Assembly (NCBI GenBank): GCA_905479565.1
Contig: CAJQMY010000037.1
Span: 1-58,308, forward strand
From: an uncultured Candidatus Nitrosopumilus sp.
GTDB lineage: Archaea > Thermoproteota > Nitrososphaeria > Nitrososphaerales > Nitrosopumilaceae
DNA length: 58,308 nt
Direction: 5' to 3'
The notes under the pieces were generated by a model. It did not search any database. It was given only the letters and a program-made list of their open reading frames with translations, and was not told the origin of the DNA. A program made the position numbers and the translations under genes. The number at the start of each line of letters is the position of its first letter. Within the stretch, counting starts at the first letter, position 1. Shown one piece after another: positions 3,057 through 41,500 of this stretch.

Positions 3057-3761
3057 CGATGAGCTTGCTCTAATCCGATATTAAGAATTGTCGATTAATA
3101 ACGCGTAGAATATGTTGTAACAGTCAACAACAAAAATACAACACTCCATACATCTAACACTAATCCGTGCATGAATTTTGTGTTGTATTCGTGTATGACA
3201 ATAACAAATAATTCCTCTTCAACAGTTGTTAGCGCATAGCATTATTATTATCTAGATTGAAATTACAACAAACAAGAGTTTACACCAAATCTTGTATGTG
3301 GAATTAACAATAATTCTAGTTATAATCATTGTATCATTTTCATAGTCTCCACTGTATTATGTAAAATAATTAAAAATGTGTTAGATCTTAAGACCAAAAA
3401 CTATTCAGTTTTTTGGTGACAGTTCCAACACTATTGTGTGATATTTCAAAATGATATTTAGGCAAAGCGTATGATTTGTATGAATGAATTCTCCGTGCTG
3501 GTTATATTCAAAAATGAAACAATATCGTCATGCAATGGTGCAATAACCAATTTGTGCATTGTTTATCTGACCATAGACTTTCATAACTATTAATACGTCC
3601 ATCTGCGCCATAGGAACCATTCTTTGCACCATTGCATTTTTTGAATTTTTATAAGTTTTGATTAACCGAGAAATTTCTTTAATTTTTATTTAAAAAGTGA
3701 TTAATCTACACTTTACACTGATTAATGATACATTAAATAGAATACCTGATATGATCTATTC
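3057..3761. other. Gene-free 0.7-kb interval between alaS and the 3762 gene
   Basis: No convincing coding frame was found on either strand; the longest tidy ATG frame is 37 codons at 3480-3593 and has no recognisable composition. The stretch must hold the alaS promoter at its left end and the promoter of the 3762 gene at its right end (AT-rich ttaaata near 3732, about 25-30 bp before the ATG). Two inverted repeats stand out: a 10-bp pair at 3135-3144/3180-3189 and a perfect 14-bp pair at 3530-3543/3624-3637. A non-coding RNA is possible but unproven. Confidence 0.6.
3530..3637. repeat. Perfect 14-bp inverted repeat with 80-bp spacer
   Basis: The left arm atgcaatggtgcaa (3530-3543) is the exact reverse complement of the right arm ttgcaccattgcat (3624-3637). 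The 80-bp interior is AT-rich and carries no gene. Function is unknown: it could be a long hairpin RNA, a paired regulator site, or the ends of a decayed small element. Confidence 0.75.
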
Positions 3762-15741: not shown

Positions 15742-16998
15742 ATGTTTGATAAACTCCGAAGTGCATTCTCTAATGCTGCAAAAAGCCTAGGAGAAAAAGA
15801 ACTCAATGAAAAAGATATTGAAGGTATCTTATTTGAATTAGAAATATCTCTTTTAGAATCTGACGTTGCAACTGAAGTTATCGATTCTATCAAAACTGAT
15901 CTTAAAGAAAAACTAATTGGCTCAAAAGTTGGTAAGAATGAAATTGAAAAATTTGTAAAAGACAGTTTGATTTCGAGTATCTCTACACTATTTGATGTTG
16001 TAGGGGAATACAATCTTTTTAAAAAAATTAATGAAAAAAAGAAACAAGAACAACCTTTTTTGATTTTATTTGTTGGAATTAATGGAACTGGAAAAACTAC
16101 CTCTTTAGCTAAAGTTGCCTATATGTTAAAAGAAGCAAAATATTCTGTTGTTGTTGCGGCGTCTGATACTTTCCGAGCTGGTGCAATTGAACAACTAAGA
16201 GAACATACCAATCGTCTTAATCTAAAATTAGTTGCACAAAATTATAATTCAGATCCTGCAGCTGTTGCACGTGATGCAGTACTGTATGCAAAATCTCACA
16301 AAACTGATGTTGTACTAATTGATACTGCTGGAAGAATGCAGACAAGTGAAAATCTGATGCAACAAATTGCAAAAATCACCAAAGTTGTAAACCCTGACAT
16401 GAAAATTTTTGTAGGTGACTCTTTGGCTGGAAATGACACAGTCAATCAAGCACGTGAATTTCATGCGCATGTAAAATTTGATGCTTCGATTTTAACTAAA
16501 AGTGATGCTGATGCAAGAGGGGGTGCAGCACTATCTATCGTAAAAGTTACATCTACCCCTGTTCTTTATGTTGGAGTTGGACAAGAATACATTGATCTTA
16601 AACCATTTGATAAGAAAACGTTTCTAGAAACTGTTTTCGGTTCGTTAGGTAATGCGAATATTATGAAAACTTCTGAACCAACGCCGGAGCCTGAACCAAC
16701 GCCGGAGCCTGAACCAACATCAGAACTGCAATCTACTTCTGATGATCCATTTGATGGAATCAAAGATGAAGATATTATAACATACTCTGAATTATTTGAT
16801 ATCCCTCTACCTGAAAATGATGTTGATGCGATTAACTTGGGAAATAAGATTCGCCAGTGGATTAGAAATGGTAAACTTAAACCTAGAGTAGCAAATGATG
16901 ATCAACATGATGATGTTGTAGATGAGGAAAAAATGCAAAAACATGATAAGGAAGAACCTAAAAAGAAAAAGCGTAGGTTCGGGTTTTTCAGAAGATGA
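15742..16998 (+). CDS. ftsY: Signal recognition particle receptor FtsY, with C-terminal extension
   Basis: A 418-residue GTPase that receives SRP-ribosome complexes at the membrane. N domain residues 1-95; G domain with P-loop GINGTGKTTS at about 111, DTFRAGAIEQL, DTAGRMQ at about 193, TKSDADARGG at about 251 and GVGQEYIDLKPF. The NG core ends near residue 306. It is followed by about 110 extra residues: a TPEPEP repeat linker, an acidic segment containing a predicted helix (NKIRQWIRNGKLKP) and a very basic end (KKKKRRFGFFRR). In bacteria the acidic domain is N-terminal; here the extension is C-terminal. The stop overlaps argF by 4 bp. Confidence 0.95.
   Translation: MFDKLRSAFSNAAKSLGEKELNEKDIEGILFELEISLLESDVATEVIDSIKTDLKEKLIGSKVGKNEIEKFVKDSLISSISTLFDVVGEYNLFKKINEKKKQEQPFLILFVGINGTGKTTSLAKVAYMLKEAKYSVVVAASDTFRAGAIEQLREHTNRLNLKLVAQNYNSDPAAVARDAVLYAKSHKTDVVLIDTAGRMQTSENLMQQIAKITKVVNPDMKIFVGDSLAGNDTVNQAREFHAHVKFDASILTKSDADARGGAALSIVKVTSTPVLYVGVGQEYIDLKPFDKKTFLETVFGSLGNANIMKTSEPTPEPEPTPEPEPTSELQSTSDDPFDGIKDEDIITYSELFDIPLPENDVDAINLGNKIRQWIRNGKLKPRVANDDQHDDVVDEEKMQKHDKEEPKKKKRRFGFFRR
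16675..16710 (+). repeat. Two 18-bp tandem repeats inside ftsY
   Basis: Two exact copies of gaaccaacgccggagcct (16675-16692 and 16693-16710) followed by a partial third encode the EPTPEP linker after the GTPase core. The repeat is more GC-rich than the surrounding DNA and is a likely length-variable site. Confidence 0.85.
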
Positions 16999-19262: not shown

Positions 19263-19730
19263 ATGGTTAATGCATATCTTGTTGTTAGAATAAGAGGTCA
19301 GGCAGATTGCCCGTACTGGGCAACCACCACTATGACTTTGTTGAAATTAGATAAAAAATATCGCGCAACTATTCTCCCTATCAAAGACAATACTCTGGGA
19401 ATGTTAAGAAAAGTACAACACTATGTTTCCTGGGTTGAAATTGACGCATCTTTAGCAACTGAATTGTTAGATAAGAAAGCAAGAAAAGGTGGTTATCAAA
19501 AAGTAACTGCTGAAGATTTGAAAGAATTAGGATTTTCAAGTACTGCAGAATTGGGAGCATCTTTGGCTGAAGGTAAAACAACATTGTCAAAATTAAAACC
19601 CCTAAAACCTTGGTTTGCTTTAGCACCTCCTGTACACGGCTTCAAAAAAAGTACAAAAAAACTTTATGGACAGAAAGGCGTTCTTGGGCAAAATCAAGAC
19701 CTTGCCACTATTGTAAGGAGAATGATTTAA
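19263..19730 (+). CDS. rpl30: Ribosomal protein L30
   Basis: A 155-residue archaeal L30. The core ferredoxin-like domain begins YLVVRIRGQADCPYWATTTM, followed by the archaeal/eukaryal C-terminal extension. It ends GQNQDLATIVRRMI. The last 42 bases of the gene are duplicated 67 bp downstream, so the same terminal peptide is encoded twice (see the repeat at 19689). Confidence 0.95.
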   Translation: MVNAYLVVRIRGQADCPYWATTTMTLLKLDKKYRATILPIKDNTLGMLRKVQHYVSWVEIDASLATELLDKKARKGGYQKVTAEDLKELGFSSTAELGASLAEGKTTLSKLKPLKPWFALAPPVHGFKKSTKKLYGQKGVLGQNQDLATIVRRMI

Positions 19731-19805
19731 CATGGCAAAGCCATCTCACGCAAAACAAAATCAAGACCTTGCCACTATTGTAAGGAGAATGATTTAACAT
19801 GGCAA
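19689..19805 (+). repeat. 50-bp direct repeat, period 67, at the L30-L15 junction
   Basis: Copy 1 (19689-19738) and copy 2 (19756-19805) are identical over 50 bp. Each contains the last codons of L30, its stop codon, an AAGGAG-like ribosome binding site, and an ATGGCAA start. Copy 1 starts a mini-ORF and copy 2 starts L15. The unique 17 bp between copies are agccatctcacgcaaaa. This is a tandem duplication of a gene junction, or a recombination scar. Confidence 0.95.
19732..19797 (+). CDS. Mini-ORF (21 aa) created by the L30-L15 duplication
   Basis: ATG at 19732, TAA at 19795-19797. It encodes MAKPSHAK followed by QNQDLATIVRRMI, the latter identical to the L30 C-terminus. A ribosome binding site (aaggag at 19715-19720) lies 11 bp before the ATG, the same spacing as for L15, so it is probably translated. 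Whether the peptide does anything is unknown; it could also simply be a by-product that keeps translational coupling between L30 and L15. Confidence 0.5.
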   Translation: MAKPSHAKQNQDLATIVRRMI

Positions 19806-20224
19806 CTAGATTACGAAAAACAAGACGACTTAGAGGCGGACGACACATGGGGTGGGGACAAGTAGGTCAACACCGTGCAAGTGGTCACAAAGGTGGTCTT
19901 GGAGTTACTGGTATGAAGAAACATCATAGAAGTACTATGATTAAAGATGATCCAGATCATTATGGCCATGATATACCTAAAACACCTCACCCAAACATTA
20001 TCAAAAACTGGGCAAGTCTTAGAGATCTCGATGACCTGTTCATAAAATTCGGTAAAGAAGAAGGAGGCAAAAAGATTGTAGATCTTGTAAGTGCAGGGTA
20101 TAAAAAACTCCTTGGTGGCGGAAAAATAACAAATGCATATTCCGTCAAAGTTCAACAATTTACTGCATCTGCTGAAGAAAAACTAAAAGCTGTTGGGGGA
20201 GAAGTGTTAACTGAAAATGGTTGA
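19799..20224 (+). CDS. rpl15: Ribosomal protein L15
   Basis: A 141-residue L15 with the typical glycine/arginine/histidine-rich N-terminus (RLRKTRRLRGGRHMGWGQVG) and a C-terminal globular part ending in KLKAVGGEVLTENG. Its start lies within copy 2 of the 50-bp repeat. Its end overlaps secY by 8 bp, implying coupled translation. Confidence 0.95.
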   Translation: MATRLRKTRRLRGGRHMGWGQVGQHRASGHKGGLGVTGMKKHHRSTMIKDDPDHYGHDIPKTPHPNIIKNWASLRDLDDLFIKFGKEEGGKKIVDLVSAGYKKLLGGGKITNAYSVKVQQFTASAEEKLKAVGGEVLTENG

Positions 20225-25033: not shown

Positions 25034-25215
25034 CTTTTAATCAAGATAAATGTAGTTAATACCAAGGGAAGCATGACCAATTCGATATCTTCTCTAAATT
25101 TTTATTTGTATGTATTTGTGGACAATATGATATTTATCGCAACTCTCAAATTGATATCCGATGTAAAGGACGGTAATGAATTTGGAGATTCACTTAACAT
25201 TAAAAAAATCATACA

Positions 25216-25659
25216 TTGATCATGGAAAAAGATAACAAGAGTAAAACCCTCAAAGATGAAAATGCATTTTCAATATGTGATCTCATGAAAGAGGACACAT
25301 CTGAAATAATCAGAAAACTTGAATCAAAAGTTCCGTCACATATTCAGAATTATTCAAATTTGTACACTGAGTACCTTCACGGATTTGATGATCTTTTCGG
25401 CACCTGCTATATTGCAGAAAAGGAGTTCTTTGATCAGATAAATATCGATTAAGGCATTCTTAGACAGGTGAGAGAACATTCTAGAATTGTAAAAGAAAAC
25501 TATCTTGATGGAGTAGAAATGGGAACAAAATTCTTGGATGAATACGTCAAGATGAGAATATTTACAATAAAGACATTTGATGGATATTTTCACACTATGG
25601 TGGAATCTTATTCCAAGATGCTTTCACAGTTTAATAATTCGCTAAAATCTTCTTCATAA
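25216..25659 (+). pseudogene. Phasin-like helical protein gene with an internal TAA
   Basis: One frame from TTG 25216 (or ATG 25222) to the stop at 25659 is interrupted only by TAA at 25450-25452. The part before reads ...VPSHIQNYSNLYTEYLHGFD...KEFFDQINID. The part after continues GILRQVREHSRIVKENYLDG...FLDEYVKMRIFTIKTFDGYF and ends in SQFNNSLKSSS. Both sides have the same helical, aromatic-rich character, so this was a single protein of about 147 residues, resembling polyhydroxyalkanoate granule-associated (phasin-like) proteins by eye. A new start at the second part is unlikely as no ribosome binding site is seen. Function of the family is not certain. Confidence 0.7.
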
Positions 25660-26159
25660 GATAGCATCTATTTTTTTGTGGTGTATATTTGAATATTTTA
25701 TGTTTGTTTTAAAAAATAGAATCAACAATTTCTAATTAAATTAGTTTATTTTGTTCATATTTTTGTTTTAATTTTGTGTATTCCGCTAAATGTTTTTTTG
25801 TTTAAACAATACCTTGTTCTGAATCTTTTTCCATTTTTGCTTGTCTTGGAAGTTTGTATTTTTTATAATTGTGTATTTTTGCAACTTTTTTTACTTTAAT
25901 GTTATAATTGATCTCATTTCTCGAATTTGTACGTTAATTTATTTTTCTGTATTGGACATTGCTTTTTTACTGTATTTTTGTGACTACATGCTTTTACGGT
26001 TCATAAATATTATGGAATCATTTGTTAAATGTTCAAAATAATAGATACTAAAATTATTAGACTCATATCATAAGCAGATTATATTAATATTATGTCATTT
26101 TAATCACTATGGATGCAATATCTTTTTCTTGACTCTGTGATTGTGTAGGGGATTTTGAA
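25660..26159. other. T-rich 0.5-kb interval with no convincing gene
   Basis: Very AT-rich on both strands. A 66-codon plus-strand frame at 25841-26041 is nothing but low-complexity hydrophobic codons from T-runs and is not believable. On the minus strand, 25736-25834 reads MEKDSEQGIV, TAA, then TKKHLAEYTKLKQKYEQNKL, a charged, protein-like frame with one internal stop (25802-25804); it might be another decayed small gene. TATA-like elements for the 26160 gene lie at the right end. Confidence 0.5.
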
Positions 26160-26941
26160 TTGTTAAAAGAAAAAACTCGATATAGAATCATTTTATTTGC
26201 ATCTATTTTGCTGATTTCTTTTGGTGTTTTTAACATGTCTACAACTATCTATGCTCAAACTATTGAAACATCTGAAATAGAACCGAAAGATTGGAGTCGG
26301 TTTTTTCAAGATACTGTTGAACAGATTCTAACTACTGTGGCACCTGTTGTTGGAGGCGCTCTTGCTCTTGGAATAAACTATCTAAGAAGTAAAGGATTGC
26401 AAATAAGTAAAGAAGCAGAAGAATATGTTATTGATGCTGCTCAATCTGTCGTGAAAACACAAGGCAGATTACTTTTTGATAAGGTTTATGAAAATAAAGA
26501 ATTACTTGCAGCTTGGGGAACGGGAAATTTTACTTTTGATGGAAAGACATCATTAAAAGAAGCATTGGAGAAATATAAAAAAGAAGCAAGAGACAAAGCT
26601 GTCTCAGATCTCACTGCTGAGATAAAATCCAGCAAATTTCAAAAAACAGCAAAAAGTATAGTTGGTGATAATATTGGTTTATTAATTGATAGAGCCTTAA
26701 CAGAAAATGAGGTCGATAAAGCAGTAAGAGCAAAAAAATTGCTAGTTGAACTCTCTGACCTGGCTATAGATGCTTCATTTTTGTATTATGATAAAAAGAA
26801 TTTGTCGATAGATGATAGGAATAAAATTATTAATGACGGAATAAGGATTATTGCAAAAATTTTGATTTTGAATCCATTGTTATGGTTCCAGATAATGCAG
26901 AACTATACCTCAAAGCCGCACTATCTAAAAAGATACCTTGA
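26160..26941 (+). pseudogene. Signal-anchored holin-like protein gene with a C-terminal frameshift
   Basis: An N-terminal signal/membrane segment (IILFASILLISFGVFNMSTT) is followed by a second hydrophobic stretch (VAPVVGGALALGINYLRSKG) and a segment like phage LL-H-type holin domains (ISKEAEEYVIDAAQSVVKTQ), then charged helices. The frame as written runs to 26969 with an odd end. In the -1 frame, from about 26855, a much more natural end appears: FDFESIVMVPDNAELYLKAA, LSKKIP, TGA at 26939-26941. The shift falls in an A5/T4 run near 26855-26863. Either the gene is broken there or the last 40 residues were replaced. Function unknown. Confidence 0.6.
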
Positions 26942-27017
26942 CAACTGTTTAATTTTAGGCAAGAATTAGTTTCTGTAAAAGCATTGGTTTTTTTACGATA
27001 GAAACAAACTAAAATTC

Positions 27018-28076
27018 ATGAAACGTGATTTAGAATCTTCTGAGATTTCCTCCTCTGAATGGTTGTCTTTGAATCAATTTCTTTATGAGATAAAACAGGT
27101 TAATTCTCCATGTGTATCTGTATATTATCCATATGGCAAAGGAGATCAAACTATTTTGCTATTGCAAGAAAATAAGCGAAATGAAACTTTTGAAAAAATA
27201 ACACTAAAAATTCAAAAAAGAATTTTAGATCTAAAAAATGACGCTTCATCCGTTGGAAAATTTGTACGCACTCTTTGTATTTTTGGTTGGATAAAAAATG
27301 GCAAAATAATAATTAAAGAAGTCGGAACTTCAAAAAAACTTCCTTACATCTACATGGTAAGTAAAAAACCATACATTAAACCATTCAATGATGTTTTAAA
27401 AACTAATTATAATGTTTTGTTGGTAACACTTGATCAAAAAACTGCAAGAATACAAAAATTTCATGGTAGTCAAATATTACAAGAAGCAAAATTCAAAATT
27501 GATTTACAGGGTAGACATAGAAAAGGAGGACAAAGCCAGGGGCGCTTTTTGAGAGCACGACAAACAAAAATTCATGTTTTCTTTAAGAAAGTTGCAAATA
27601 AAATAAAAACGATGGATTCTAATTCAGAATTACTTTTGTTGGGTGGTTCTGGTCCTGCAAAAACAGAATTTTACGGTGAACTTGATTCAGAATTGATGAA
27701 AAAATGTAGATTTGTAGAAAATCTGTCTTTTTCAACACCATCTAAAGAAATCTATGAGAAAATCATCCATCATCTATACCAACATAGGAGAAAACATGTC
27801 ATTGAATTGCTTGAAAAATATGAAAAATTATTCAAAGACGGTTTGACTGCTAAAAGAAATAATGTAATTTACAAGGCACTGGAAATGGGTGCTGTAGATA
27901 CCTTAATTGTGTCTGCCAATTATCACACAAATTCTCAATTCAAAAAAATAATCAAGATGCTTGAAATTGCAAAAAATACATCCTCCAAAATAGAATTTGC
28001 AGTTTCTCCAAATATAATCAAAAAATTAGATGTTGATAATTCTGTTTTGGCAATTCTTAGATATAAAATAAAATAA
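27018..28076 (+). CDS. eRF1-like factor of the Vms1/baeRF class with GGQ motif
   Basis: A 352-residue protein with a peptidyl-tRNA hydrolysis loop: GRHRKGGQSQGRFLRARQTK, GGQ at about residues 170-172. Before it is a beta-rich domain (VLLVTLDQKTARIQKFHGSQ) typical of eRF1 domain 2; after it an eRF1/Pelota domain 3-like fold (VIYKALEMGAVDTLIVSANY). No NIKS-type stop-codon recognition motif is present in the N-terminal part, so it is not the canonical aRF1. Known Vms1/VLRF1 proteins release nascent chains from stalled 60S subunits; an analogous rescue role for 50S-stalled peptides is inferred here. Single gene, own promoter region. Confidence 0.82.
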   Translation: MKRDLESSEISSSEWLSLNQFLYEIKQVNSPCVSVYYPYGKGDQTILLLQENKRNETFEKITLKIQKRILDLKNDASSVGKFVRTLCIFGWIKNGKIIIKEVGTSKKLPYIYMVSKKPYIKPFNDVLKTNYNVLLVTLDQKTARIQKFHGSQILQEAKFKIDLQGRHRKGGQSQGRFLRARQTKIHVFFKKVANKIKTMDSNSELLLLGGSGPAKTEFYGELDSELMKKCRFVENLSFSTPSKEIYEKIIHHLYQHRRKHVIELLEKYEKLFKDGLTAKRNNVIYKALEMGAVDTLIVSANYHTNSQFKKIIKMLEIAKNTSSKIEFAVSPNIIKKLDVDNSVLAILRYKIK

Positions 28077-37347: not shown

Positions 37348-37563
37348 ATGGAACAAAACAAAATAGATGAAATTTTAGCTCATATTAACACCAAAATCGC
37401 TGAAGATGTTCCTAGTATTGTAAAGATGCTTATTAGAAAAAAAATAAGCGGTTTTCAATCATTTGAAGCTGAATCTTTGCCTGATTCGTTAAGAAACTGT
37501 TCTGTTGAAGAATTGATTTCTATAGTTAAACATGGTATTGATACTGGAAAATTAAAAATTTAG
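37348..37563 (+). CDS. Small helical protein, unknown function (71 aa)
   Basis: All-helical 71-residue protein: MEQNKIDEILAHINTKIAED, VPSIVKMLIRKKISG, then SVEELISIVKHGIDTGKLKI. No cysteine or membrane segment. Divergent from cofE, with 65 bp between them. I do not recognise the family. Confidence 0.6.
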   Translation: MEQNKIDEILAHINTKIAEDVPSIVKMLIRKKISGFQSFEAESLPDSLRNCSVEELISIVKHGIDTGKLKI

Positions 37564-37583
37564 ATCTAGATCAGATTTTAAAA

Positions 37584-37676
37584 TTAGGTCTTTCCATTTG
37601 TCTCCACGTCTGACAAAAAGTATCCGATTACACAAATCATAATGACAAACAATGCTGTTGGTGCTACATCTCCTAC
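37584..37676 (-). pseudogene. Small single-span membrane ORF lacking a normal start codon
   Basis: On the minus strand an open stretch reads VGDVAPTALFVIMICVIGYF, then LSDVETNGKT and TAA at 37584-37586. It has the form of a small one-helix membrane protein, but the codon where a start is expected is GTA (37674-37676) and an in-frame TAA lies just upstream. Either the start codon was mutated, or the frame is a remnant. It neighbours other damaged ORFs. Confidence 0.35.
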
Positions 37677-37699
37677 ATTTTGTTAATGATTAGCACCAT

Positions 37700-37835
37700 T
37701 CACAAAAATGCATGTATTGCAAATTCTGTATTTTCTACATCTGGATGATAAAGAATACCTTGCAACATGGCATCCCCTGCATCTTTAGGTATTACGTACA
37801 ATTATTATGAGATTATCAAATACATCTTGAATCAT
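37700..37835 (-). pseudogene. Frameshifted small ORF remnant
   Basis: From the ATG at 37835 one frame reads MIQDVFDNLIIIVRNT and stops (TAA at 37785-37787). The adjacent frame carries on without a start as VIPKDAGDAMLQGILYHPDV, ENTEFAIHAFL and TGA at 37700-37702. The second part has natural protein composition, so the two are probably one gene of about 45 residues broken by a one-base shift near 37790. Family unknown. Confidence 0.4.
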
Positions 37836-37860
37836 AATTTTGGAGATACGTGAAATGAAA

Positions 37861-38421
37861 CTAGGAATTTTCTTCTGAGATGTCATTTATTGTGACATAC
37901 ATATGAAACTCACTTTCGTCTATCTTAACTGAAAAATCATCAATTGTAGAATAGTATTTTTTGTTCTCTTCTGAGTCCTCTGTGGTCAGTAAACCGTGGG
38001 ATATTAAATATGAAATGTTTTCAGAAAATTCTAAGCTGTTATATTTCATCCTTGATGCAATTTCCCATAGAGTTAACGGGTAATCAAATGCCGCATCTAA
38101 GATGTGTTTTTTGAGGGGATCATCATATGAATTTAAAATTGAATTTTTTAGTGCCTCGTCTTTAATTTCTATTTTGTGTTTTGATTGGGGTTCTAGATGG
38201 CAAATCTCCTCTAGTGTTTTTTTTATTTTAGTTGAACCATCTTAACCTAGGAATTTTTCTGTGACACACTCAAACTTTTCAAAGTCTTTTAGTGATGATG
38301 CAAGTGTAATCTGATATTGTTGGAATAGATTGTCTTTGATTTTTGTAATGTCGTCATCGTTTACAAAACCTGTAAATGTTTTCTCAAAAGATGTGGCAAG
38401 GAGAGTTTCCATTGCAGTCAT
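37861..38421 (-). pseudogene. Winged-helix regulator-like gene with one internal TAA
   Basis: One frame from ATG 38421 to the stop at 37861-37863 is interrupted only by TAA at 38242-38244 (VTEKFLG, stop, DGSTKIKKTLEE). The 185-residue product would have a helical N-terminus (MTAMETLLATSFEKTFTGFV) and a C-terminal winged helix (DPLKKHILDAAFDYPLTLWE, IASRMKYNSLEF, ISYLISHGLL). Its ATG overlaps the stop of the upstream regulator gene in an ATGA, so the pair was made together. A single base change from AAA/GAA/CAA would restore the frame. It is either recently inactivated or produces a 59-residue N-terminal piece. Confidence 0.75.
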
Positions 38422-38927
38422 GAATAAACTGCCTCTCCTATCCTTGATTTGGGTAAACGTGACAAGTTTACCTGAAGTCTTATCTGACTGACTTTGGTTG
38501 AGACACTAAACTCTGCTTTTGAAATTATTTTGTCATAAACTCTCGCCCTTTTTTCTGATTTTGTATATCCAACTGGTAGAATGAATCCATCTCGTAGCAG
38601 CTCATTGAACTTGTGATATGCTGAAGACAATGATACTTCACATTTTAGCAGTAGCTCGTCTTTTGCAATTGGTTTGTCAATATGCAATAAAATTTTCCGT
38701 TTTACTGGATCACTGTAAATATCTATGATTTTTTCTGCAAGATTGTGTTCGTATAGCTCAATCCACAAAGTATAGTCGTGATCCTTGCTTATCGTAAGAG
38801 CTGATTTTATTGCTAATCTTGGAAGTTTGTTTTCGCATGCAAGCATTGTTCTCTGACCTGGTTCCAGGTTGTTGTTTGCATTTCGAATTGTGTCCATGCA
38901 TAGTAGCTGGGAAAACTGGTTTGGCAT
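38418..38927 (-). CDS. Winged-helix transcription regulator
   Basis: A 169-residue protein. The central winged helix runs about residues 70-125 (IYSDPVKRKILLHIDKPIAK, DELLLKCEVSLSSAYHKFNE, LLRDGFILPVGYTKS), followed by a beta C-terminus (AEFSVSTKVSQIRLQVNLSR). It is like thaumarchaeal ArsR/PadR-type regulators. It is divergent from the small operon at 39066-39678 and overlaps the following HTH gene by 4 bp. A TATA-like element is seen near 38953-38962 on its strand. Target inferred to include itself or the divergent operon. Confidence 0.75.
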   Translation of the reverse strand: MPNQFSQLLCMDTIRNANNNLEPGQRTMLACENKLPRLAIKSALTISKDHDYTLWIELYEHNLAEKIIDIYSDPVKRKILLHIDKPIAKDELLLKCEVSLSSAYHKFNELLRDGFILPVGYTKSEKRARVYDKIISKAEFSVSTKVSQIRLQVNLSRLPKSRIGEAVYS

Positions 38928-38997
38928 TGTATCACAACATAGGTCAAAATCTTACTTAAGAAATTCTATTTTTTGTTATTTTTGGAAAAAAAATTAT

Positions 38998-39007
38998 TGC
39001 TTATATA
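38998..39007 (+). promoter_or_regulatory. TATA box of the small surface-protein operon
   Basis: The run tgcttatata/tatagg places a TATA box near 39000-39007; a start about 25 bp later would be near 39027-39032, right at the foot of the hairpin at 39027-39050. Confidence 0.5.
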
Positions 39008-39026
39008 GGAGCAAAAATTTAGGGGT

Positions 39027-39050
39027 GACAAGGGGATTTAACTCCCTGTC
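39027..39050 (+). promoter_or_regulatory. Hairpin in the leader of the 39066 operon
   Basis: gaca-a-gggg...ctccc-tgtc can form a stem of 8 pairs (one bulge, one G-U) around an atttaa loop. A second small stem (ccaca/tgtgg, 39050-39069) follows and would include the GTG start at 39066. In a genome where most leaders appear absent, a structured leader may control translation or be a regulator-binding site. Confidence 0.45.
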
Positions 39051-39065
39051 CACATAGGTTGGACT

Positions 39066-39137
39066 GTGGCATTCATTTTACTTGGAGTATATATTTTTAG
39101 AAAATCCTGGACTAAACTTGATGGGAATAGAAAATGA
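39066..39137 (+). CDS. Possible 23-residue membrane peptide
   Basis: GTG at 39066 to TGA at 39135-39137: MAFILLGVYIFRKSWTKLDG and NRK. One short helix with a basic end; the frame can be read a little further upstream but without a start codon. The stop overlaps the next ATG in an ATGA, matching the coupling seen between the following genes. It may be a truncated remnant. Confidence 0.35.
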   Translation: MAFILLGVYIFRKSWTKLDGNRK

Positions 39138-39550
39138 AAACAATTTTTTTAATTTTATTGCTGGTTTTTGGTATTGTAATTTCTCAAGAATCTTTTTCTG
39201 AGGATTATTTCTCGATTCCTTCTTGTTATGTTGGTGTTTTTGTAATTGATCATGTACAGTGTTCCACAAGAGATTCCCCTCCATGTCCAGAACCGTCATT
39301 TGAAAAAAATAGATTTTGTGTAGTGAAGAAAATTGATATTTGTGAGGCAGGGTCTGTGCTTAAAGATGGTTTATGCATTGAAGACGCTCATCTTTTTCGA
39401 GTAGATGATCCTACATTCACGCGTCAATCTTTGCAAACAGGTGAATCTTTGGGTGATTTCACAAATCTATTTGGATGGTCTGGATTTGCATTATCTGGGT
39501 TCATTGTTTTTGCATATGTAATTATGAAAATAAAAAAGAGGAAAAAATGA
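39134..39550 (+). CDS. Secreted cysteine-containing protein with C-terminal membrane anchor
   Basis: A 138-residue protein with a signal peptide (MKTIFLILLLVFGIVISQES), an outside domain of about 80 residues with seven cysteines (IPSCYVGVF, VQCSTRDSPPCP, NRFCVVKKIDICEAGSVL, DGLCIED) that could form disulfides, and a C-terminal helix (GFALSGFIVFAYVIMKI) ending in KKRKK. Type I orientation with a tiny cytoplasmic tail. The ATG and TGA both overlap neighbours (ATGA), so it is the middle gene of a three-gene operon. Family not recognised. Confidence 0.75.
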   Translation: MKTIFLILLLVFGIVISQESFSEDYFSIPSCYVGVFVIDHVQCSTRDSPPCPEPSFEKNRFCVVKKIDICEAGSVLKDGLCIEDAHLFRVDDPTFTRQSLQTGESLGDFTNLFGWSGFALSGFIVFAYVIMKIKKRKK

Positions 39551-39678
39551 ACGATTTTGGAAATAGATGTGTTTGCGGACATGAAAAAAATGAACATGTG
39601 TGGATACAAAAAAGTGTATCAAAATTAGAATTTTTGAGGTATGATGATGTGAATTATTCATTTCAGTATAGAAAATGA
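39547..39678 (+). CDS. Small zinc-knuckle-like cytoplasmic protein (43 aa)
   Basis: Begins MNDFGNRCVCGHEKNEHVWI; the CVCGH-x4-H pattern is a likely metal site. It ends SFQYRK, shorter than expected if a second Cys pair once followed. The ATG overlaps the stop of the cysteine-rich membrane protein (ATGA), so both are made from one message. A 12-bp hairpin follows the stop. Confidence 0.55.
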   Translation: MNDFGNRCVCGHEKNEHVWIQKSVSKLEFLRYDDVNYSFQYRK

Positions 39679-39691
39679 TGTATTGTATTTG

Positions 39692-39725
39692 TCATGGATC
39701 ATTGATTTGAACAAATGATCCATGA
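39692..39725 (+). terminator. 12-bp perfect hairpin after the 39066-39678 operon
   Basis: tcatggatcatt (39692-39703) and aatgatccatga (39714-39725) are exact reverse complements with a 10-base loop, 14 bp after the stop of the zinc-knuckle gene. It could end the operon, or protect its 3' end. No long T-run follows. Confidence 0.6.
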
Positions 39726-40046
39726 ATGTTATAAGATGATTTTACAATAGTGTGACATGACAAATAATGAATCATGGGAAGTATTACTGAGATTGTCTTG
39801 GATTATGATTGATGATAAATAATACCTCAGATTCGACCAAGAAGGCTTTGTGCCTTTAGCATTTTTTGGATGATTCCTGAAATCGTTTATTTTGATCAAA
39901 CCTGAGTCCTCCTGCAATGACTATAAACCAAAAAGCGTTAGGAGCAGCATTACTAGAGTGAAAATGGATTAAAGGAGCAGGTTATTGTGAAATTTTAACA
40001 TGCTTAAGTTTATACAAAATATAAAAAACATAGGTGCAGTCACCTC
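39726..40046. other. Interval with no convincing gene
   Basis: A 62-codon minus-strand frame at 39729-39917 has unconvincing composition. A short plus-strand frame at 39918 (MTINQKALGAALLE, then TGA) recalls the beginning of a signal peptide but goes nowhere. At the right end, tttatacaaaatata is a TATA-like promoter region for the 40047 gene, and aggtg-cagt-cacct (40032-40045) is a small hairpin that hides its AGGTG ribosome binding site. Confidence 0.5.
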
Positions 40047-40977
40047 GTGATTATTTTTCTTATGCCTGCATTCTCTACATTATTTCTGATTTACCAAACC
40101 TCTAATGGTGTACCAAAATCCATGTCACTTAAAAAATATTCTGATGATCTAGTTGCAATGAATCAATTATCCAAAAAACATCAATTGACAGATGATGAGT
40201 AGAGATTCGAGAATTCGAAAAGACTGATGCAAGAAAAACTAAAAGAGATTTCTTTAGACTATATCGGTCTGAAAATTGTACATGTGGAATTGCTTGAAGG
40301 ATATTTCCATTTCAAAACAGTACTCATTGGGCAGAACGATTTGATTTAGAGTCTTCGTCTGTATGTGACTTTGAACGCGTAATACTTTTGCATATGCAAA
40401 AACTCGCGCAAACCGAAAATTTTAAAATATTTGTAAAAAATATATCTTACATAACCTTGAATTATCAATACAAGATGAAAGAAGCTACTAATCCAATATC
40501 CACTATGGATTATTTGCAATAAATAACAACAATCAGAGTGCATCAACCTATTTTCATCTGAGTTCATGCACTGATGAGATAACTGACAAGGAATCATTGT
40601 TTTTACATTGTTTTGATGGTGGTACTGATTATAGATATGCAACGTACAACTATGATGATGTGATGTCTAGTTATTCAAACGGGGAATTTTGCAATATTGT
40701 TTTGGACTCGTGGCGCCAACCCCTTCATGATTACTCTCAACGATTACGTGAAAAACAAAAGCAGTTAGAGCAAGAATTCATGGAGAATACTTTTGATCAA
40801 GAATTACAATGGATATTTTTCTCGGATATGAACAAGCAAGGAGAACTGAGAAACATTGTTGGAAATATGATTCATGGAAAATTTGATGAGCAAAGTACTC
40901 AGGATATGATAAAGCAGTATGAGAAGCAGTGTGGCAGTCTGTCTGATGAACTATTGGAGTTAATTGAGAAGAGATGA
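40047..40977 (+). pseudogene. Membrane-anchored protein gene with a stop codon and two frameshifts
   Basis: Reading starts at GTG 40047 with a membrane segment (MIIFLMPAFSTLFLIYQTSN). It meets TAG at 40200-40202 (QLTDDE, stop, RFENSKRLMQEKLKEIS). The frame changes between 40298 and 40347 (EGYFH to FQNSTHWAERFDLESSSVCD) and again between 40492 and 40522 (TNPISTMDYL to INNNNQSASTYFHLSSCTDE), then is open to TGA 40977 (QRLREKQKQLEQEFMEN, a coiled coil). Joined, about 309 residues. The last part alone (TTG 40597, 126 residues) may still be translated and overlaps the next gene by 4 bp. Family unknown; a sensor-like outside domain is a guess. Confidence 0.6.
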
Positions 40978-41264
40978 AAACTAGACTTTTGATAATCATT
41001 GGAATTGTAATATTAGGTACATTTACAGCGACAGTTGCTGGCAGTATTGCATCTATCTATCTATACAACAAGGCTTGGTTGGCAAGTGGTAATGATATTT
41101 CTGAATGTATGAGATTTGCATATGTTGAGAATTGCACTTTGGGAAATGAATACCTTGAGGGTCTTGATTTTTGGGACAAACTAGTTTGATTTGGAATTTT
41201 AATTGCAGGTGCTGTGCTTGGTGTAATTATATGTAGAAAGGAAATAATTCCAAAGAAGCAATGA
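40974..41264 (+). pseudogene. Two-span small membrane protein gene with an internal TGA
   Basis: From the ATG at 40974: MKTRLLIIIGIVILGTFTAT, VAGSIASIYLYNKAWLASGN, an outside loop with two cysteines (ISECMRFAYVENCTLGNEYL), EGLDFWDKLV, then TGA at 41187-41189. The same frame continues FGILIAGAVLGVIICRKEII and PKKQ to TGA 41262-41264. The second part is an evident second membrane helix with a basic end, so the intact protein would have 95 residues and a hairpin topology. The shortened product keeps one helix. Overlap (ATGA) with the previous gene. Confidence 0.7.
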
Positions 41265-41500
41265 TGAAGACCATGTCAAAATGTGGATGAGGCGATGAAT
41301 TTCATTAATAATTATCTCTTCGATGAATCTTTTCTTTTGTAGTACGATGTGAGGTCTGCTCAAGAGAATAATCCTCCAAAAAGAAGGTGATATTGATTTT
41401 TTTGAGGGTTTTTTGGATGTAGGGATTGGATTTGGTATTTTTACATCTAACGCTTGGACATCTGAAAAGCTTTTAATCTGTAGAAAAAGCTTTTTTGATT
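41265..41500. other. Interval before leuC with ORF fragments
   Basis: GTG 41283 begins MDEAMNFINNYLFDESFLL, TAG, YDVRSAQENNPPKRR, TGA; the neighbouring frame then reads EGDIDFFEGFLDVGIGFGIF. These look like pieces of one small decayed gene but are too short to be sure. The right end should carry the leuC promoter (cttttaatctg near 41468). Confidence 0.35.

Follow-up and report, generated by a model that had tools for sequence, protein, structure and literature searches.

Alternative end joining in C. elegans that lack HELQ, the homologue of Hel308, leaves tandem duplications as well as templated insertions of a patchwork kind (PMC8654963), and in Saccharolobus islandicus the primase promotes microhomology end joining (PMC12019639). 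Chimeric molecules produced by phi29 amplification are mostly inverted and close, the direct and distant ones (>10 kb) amounting to about 12%, with complementarity in 27.6% of those (PMC1855051). Under the name of templated insertions, no archaeal precedent was found in the literature searched, most subscription journals lying outside its scope. The locus described here, a 67-bp insertion between two ribosomal protein genes of a marine, ammonia-oxidising archaeon of the Nitrosopumilus group, resembles the products of alternative/theta-mediated end joining in C. elegans helq-1 (PMC8654963) in its short direct duplication, its filler from elsewhere and the microhomology at its joins; it differs in that the bearer is an archaeon, the donor lies in another gene and not beside the break, and the case is a single natural one. 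With microhomology-mediated break-induced replication / FoSTeS it would share two successive switches, at microhomologies of 5 and 10 nt, and the return to the original locus, whereas the tract copied here is very short (17–27 nt). The HELQ case and the archaeal primase case are analogies for the present scar and not tests of it. Polymerase theta is not expected in the archaeon bearing the insertion.

The insertion was located in a stretch of 58,308 nt, referred to as the window. A repeat search showed that the 50 bp at positions 19689–19738 (CAAAATCAAGACCTTGCCACTATTGTAAGGAGAATGATTTAACATGGCAA) recur without mismatch at 19756–19805 on the forward strand, with a spacing of 67 (chance expectation about 3e-21), and this is the sole direct repeat of at least 20 bp within 600 bp reported for the whole window. 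The repeat straddles the stop codon of the uL30 gene (19263–19730, forward strand, 155 aa; Pfam PF00327, 42.6 bits; protein 94% identical in the nearest relative) and the start of the uL15 gene (19799–20224, forward strand, 141 aa; Pfam PF00828, 49.4 bits), both of which are intact despite the insertion. Each copy consists of the last 13 uL30 codons, the stop, 1 base and the first 7 bases of uL15; the first copy holds L30 codons 143–155 together with the former L15 start ATGGCAA, and the second holds the L30 tail followed by the L15 start that is now used. Between them lie 17 bp of filler, AGCCATCTCACGCAAAA (19739–19755, forward strand), which have no counterpart beside the repeat and stem from neither L30 nor L15. 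The initial annotation had described a 67-bp tandem duplication; the 50-bp direct repeat, with its perfect match and its period of 67, stands, but only 50 of the 67 bp are doubled. The other 17 come from an unlinked locus, a point that the initial annotation had overlooked and that gives the chief indication of how the insertion arose.

That locus could be identified within the same genome (64 contigs, 1.42 Mb). The 32 nt at 19734–19765, comprising the filler and both of its flanks, match C10:8751-8782 exactly and occur only once elsewhere, and the 17-nt core, corresponding to G000:C10:8756-8772, is found only in the window and at this donor site even when 1 mismatch is allowed. By chance about 8e-4 matches would be expected for a 17-mer and about 3e-12 for a 32-mer. 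The donor stretch lies antisense within a 675-codon ORF with a Thioredox_DsbH/DUF255 match (PF03190, E 1e-76), and since relatives carry a homologous stretch at the corresponding place, it is native coding sequence there. Alleles of the relatives read, for example, AAGTCATTTCACGTAAAACAAAATCAAG; the patch in the window equals the donor allele of its own genome and none of the alleles of the 11 relatives compared, and it was therefore copied after the lineage had separated. The patch was also looked for, as an independent record, in viral contigs and was not found. In the complete relative G036 the donor and the insertion site are about 750 kb apart in the same orientation (C1: 380 kb versus 1,127 kb); the contigs of the bearing genome are unordered.

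Alignment with the donor revealed microhomology at both joins. At the left join (19734–19738, forward strand) the insertion reads TTTAACAT GGCAA followed by AGCC, the donor reads TTCA GGCAA AGCC and native L15 reads ACAT GGCAA CTAG, so that the 5 nt GGCAA are common to the L15 start and the donor. At the right join (19756–19765, forward strand) GCAAAA CAAAATCAAG is followed by ACCTTG, while the donor reads CAAAATCAAG TGTTTT and native L30 reads TTGGG CAAAATCAAG ACCTTG, giving 10 nt common to the donor and the L30 tail.

Comparison with relatives established the junction without the insertion as ancestral and the insertion as the derived state. A search of the genus gave a match to the region in 85 of 95 genomes; among the matches listed, the two halves of the query overlap on the target, which means a single copy. 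Across 95 locus sequences, some of them one genome fetched twice, the L30 stop lies 1 nt from the L15 ATG; 18 of the 95 were left unclassified by motif, their sequence context showing the stop directly before the ATG (one at 0 nt), and a distance of 68 nt is found only in the window's own copies. A pattern that combines the junction with a second CAAAAT was detected in 1 of 250 family genomes, namely the one bearing the insertion. None of the genus and family relatives examined carries the insertion, and their L30 stop and L15 start are 0–1 nt apart. The suggestion that the duplication is recent is borne out by the identity of the two copies, by their absence from every relative examined and by the filler being the genome's own donor allele. 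A 1-Mb scaffold, L041 (NZ_LFTY01000001.1, titled Candidatus Rhodobacter lobularis), encodes an L30 with 87% identity to that of the archaeon, so that its record would seem to be mislabelled or mixed.

The window is largely collinear with the nearest complete relative, and apart from the insertion its aligned blocks contain just six indels of at least 7 bp, the largest of 15 bp. No further short-range repeats or comparable insertions were found in the window. Alignment with G036 is absent, partial or out of order at 3100–3720, 25041–27033 and 37562–41438, probably because of gene-content differences. Separately, an exact 18-bp tandem repeat of 2.6 copies (CTGAACCAACGCCGGAGC) is present at 16673–16718, upstream of the gene at 16995, and sits where the alignment with the nearest complete relative breaks off, the block ending at 16726/16675.

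Most likely, the insertion is a real but ordinary private mutation, and we hold with reasonable confidence that it is a mutation rather than an artefact. Its probable origin is a double template switch during repair or replication restart, which would have left a private templated-insertion scar. A strand whose 3' end lay at the L15 start (..ATGGCAA) may have annealed through the 5 nt GGCAA to the unlinked gene, where 17–27 nt of the distant DUF255/thioredoxin-domain gene would have been copied; the nascent strand would then have returned to the L30 tail by pairing over the 10-nt CAAAATCAAG, landing 50 bp upstream of its point of departure, and synthesis would have continued into L15. One such excursion, out at GGCAA and back at CAAAATCAAG, could account for the whole insertion, and the reverse direction on the other strand would yield an identical product. 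Either synthesis-dependent microhomology repair or template switching in replication may have been at work. The genome encodes the primase small subunit PriS and shows a marginal match to the Hel308 C-terminal domain (24.4 bits against a cut-off of 24.3), and a search of it for Ku found none.

The concern about an assembly artefact raised in the initial annotation is legitimate. It is possible, if rather unlikely, that the insertion was instead generated in vitro by a polymerase that switched templates while the whole genome or the library was amplified, the assembler having kept a double-chimeric molecule and walked the 50-bp loop twice. In phi29 amplification, strands do form chimeras when they re-anneal where they are complementary over a short length (PMC1855051), a likeness to the present joins; identical copies are what a graph loop produces by construction, and the insertion is present in one assembly only, a draft of 64 contigs. 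However, joins of 5 and 10 nt fall below usual assembly k-mers and are too short for a pure graph error, which is unlikely, and chimeric molecules must therefore have existed. The chimeras described for phi29 are mostly inverted and within 10 kb, whereas the insertion here is double and probably direct and distant: 85% of them were inverted, and 58 of 475 were direct joins spanning more than 10 kb, of which just 27.6% showed complementarity (PMC1855051), while the present donor, if synteny with G036 holds, lies about 750 kb away in direct orientation, with homology at both joins. A completeness of 95% is moreover high for a single-cell genome, and the window holds no second repeat of such kind.

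The tail of L30 adds a further aspect to the order of events. Codon 145 has changed from AAA to CAA (K145Q) in both copies, A being present in 63 of 64 relatives, and codon 148 has changed to GCC (Ala; D/G148A), a private state that is likewise seen in both copies. Taken as a whole, the stretch 19689–19710 (L30 codons 143–149) departs from the nearest relatives by three A-to-C changes inside 11 bp, of which K145Q and D/G148A are private; a third template for this cluster (CAAGACCTTGCCA) was sought and rejected, as the sequence was found only in the two copies themselves and at no other genomic donor. It is with the C of codon 145 that the homology to the donor reaches its full 10 nt, and at the donor locus this C is conserved (10 of 11 relatives). 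K145Q may thus either have arisen first, enabling the switch, or have been brought from the donor and then homogenised or collapsed in the assembly. As a point against the templated-insertion scar, the private L30 bases in both copies fit a prior substitution but would also fit assembler collapse or later homogenisation. We regard as doubtful the more elaborate scenario of a genuine natural double switch driven by microhomology in a Ku-less archaeon, perhaps with Hel308 or primase, in which K145Q was transferred from the donor in one event and copied into both repeats.

The insertion creates a 21-codon mini-ORF (19732–19797, forward strand) encoding MAKPSHAKQNQDLATIVRRMI, which was recognised in the initial annotation as properly spaced and is indeed present in the ORF listing, beginning 1 nt after the L30 stop and ending 1 nt before the L15 ATG. 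Many relatives have AGGAG-N11-ATG and stop-C-ATG in front of L15, and here this arrangement now stands before the mini-ORF as well as before L15. Since this ribosome binding site and the stop/start spacing are kept before L15, the insertion probably hardly affects L15 synthesis and would be nearly neutral. No stop codon occurs in the filler, and the L30 tail that was copied continues the frame opened by the former L15 ATG; a ribosome ending on L30 could therefore traverse the 21 codons and finish 1 base before the L15 ATG. It has been proposed that the mini-peptide might act in regulation or as a competitor of L30, and that the duplication might be maintained. Such a functional mini-gene, whose 21-aa peptide with the last 13 L30 residues would compete with L30 or regulate the operon through leader-peptide-like control of L15, is very improbable, even though its frame is open and its upstream AGGAG and stop-1nt-ATG spacing are those of L15. 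Only one genome has it, a search for a conserved mini-ORF in relatives, including the 250 family genomes, having found none; the peptide matches no Pfam family, and the RNA fold of the region is unremarkable (z = -1.6). The frame and start were inherited from the duplicated sequence, so that the ORF follows automatically from an in-frame duplication, and the odds of the frame arising without selection are one in three. Its N-terminal 8 codons are the L15 start joined to antisense sequence of an unrelated gene. A regulatory leader peptide or uORF was considered as well and rejected, the ORF not being conserved upstream of L15 and being missing from all relatives examined. As a by-product of the insertion, the mini-ORF has no support as a maintained feature, a selected peptide or a regulator.

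Replication slippage or unequal exchange could produce a simple tandem duplication, which with later divergence of 17 bp would give a direct repeat with a 67-bp period. This reading is refuted and retains a practically negligible probability, as the whole period is not present twice (50 of 67 bp) and, next to two identical copies of the 50 bp, the 17 bp have no match up- or downstream of the repeat but match the distant locus exactly.

Caution is warranted when a tidy duplicated junction with a mini-ORF is met, as such a structure can be a by-product of mutation or of technique. The anatomy of the insertion suggests a simple screen of archaeal genomes, for a short direct repeat with a filler that matches elsewhere in the genome. 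If real, the insertion is a readable mutation scar with its donor and both microhomologies identified, in an archaeal lineage whose break repair is little studied, and if the natural switch is true, it would be evidence for patchwork templated insertions in Thaumarchaeota.
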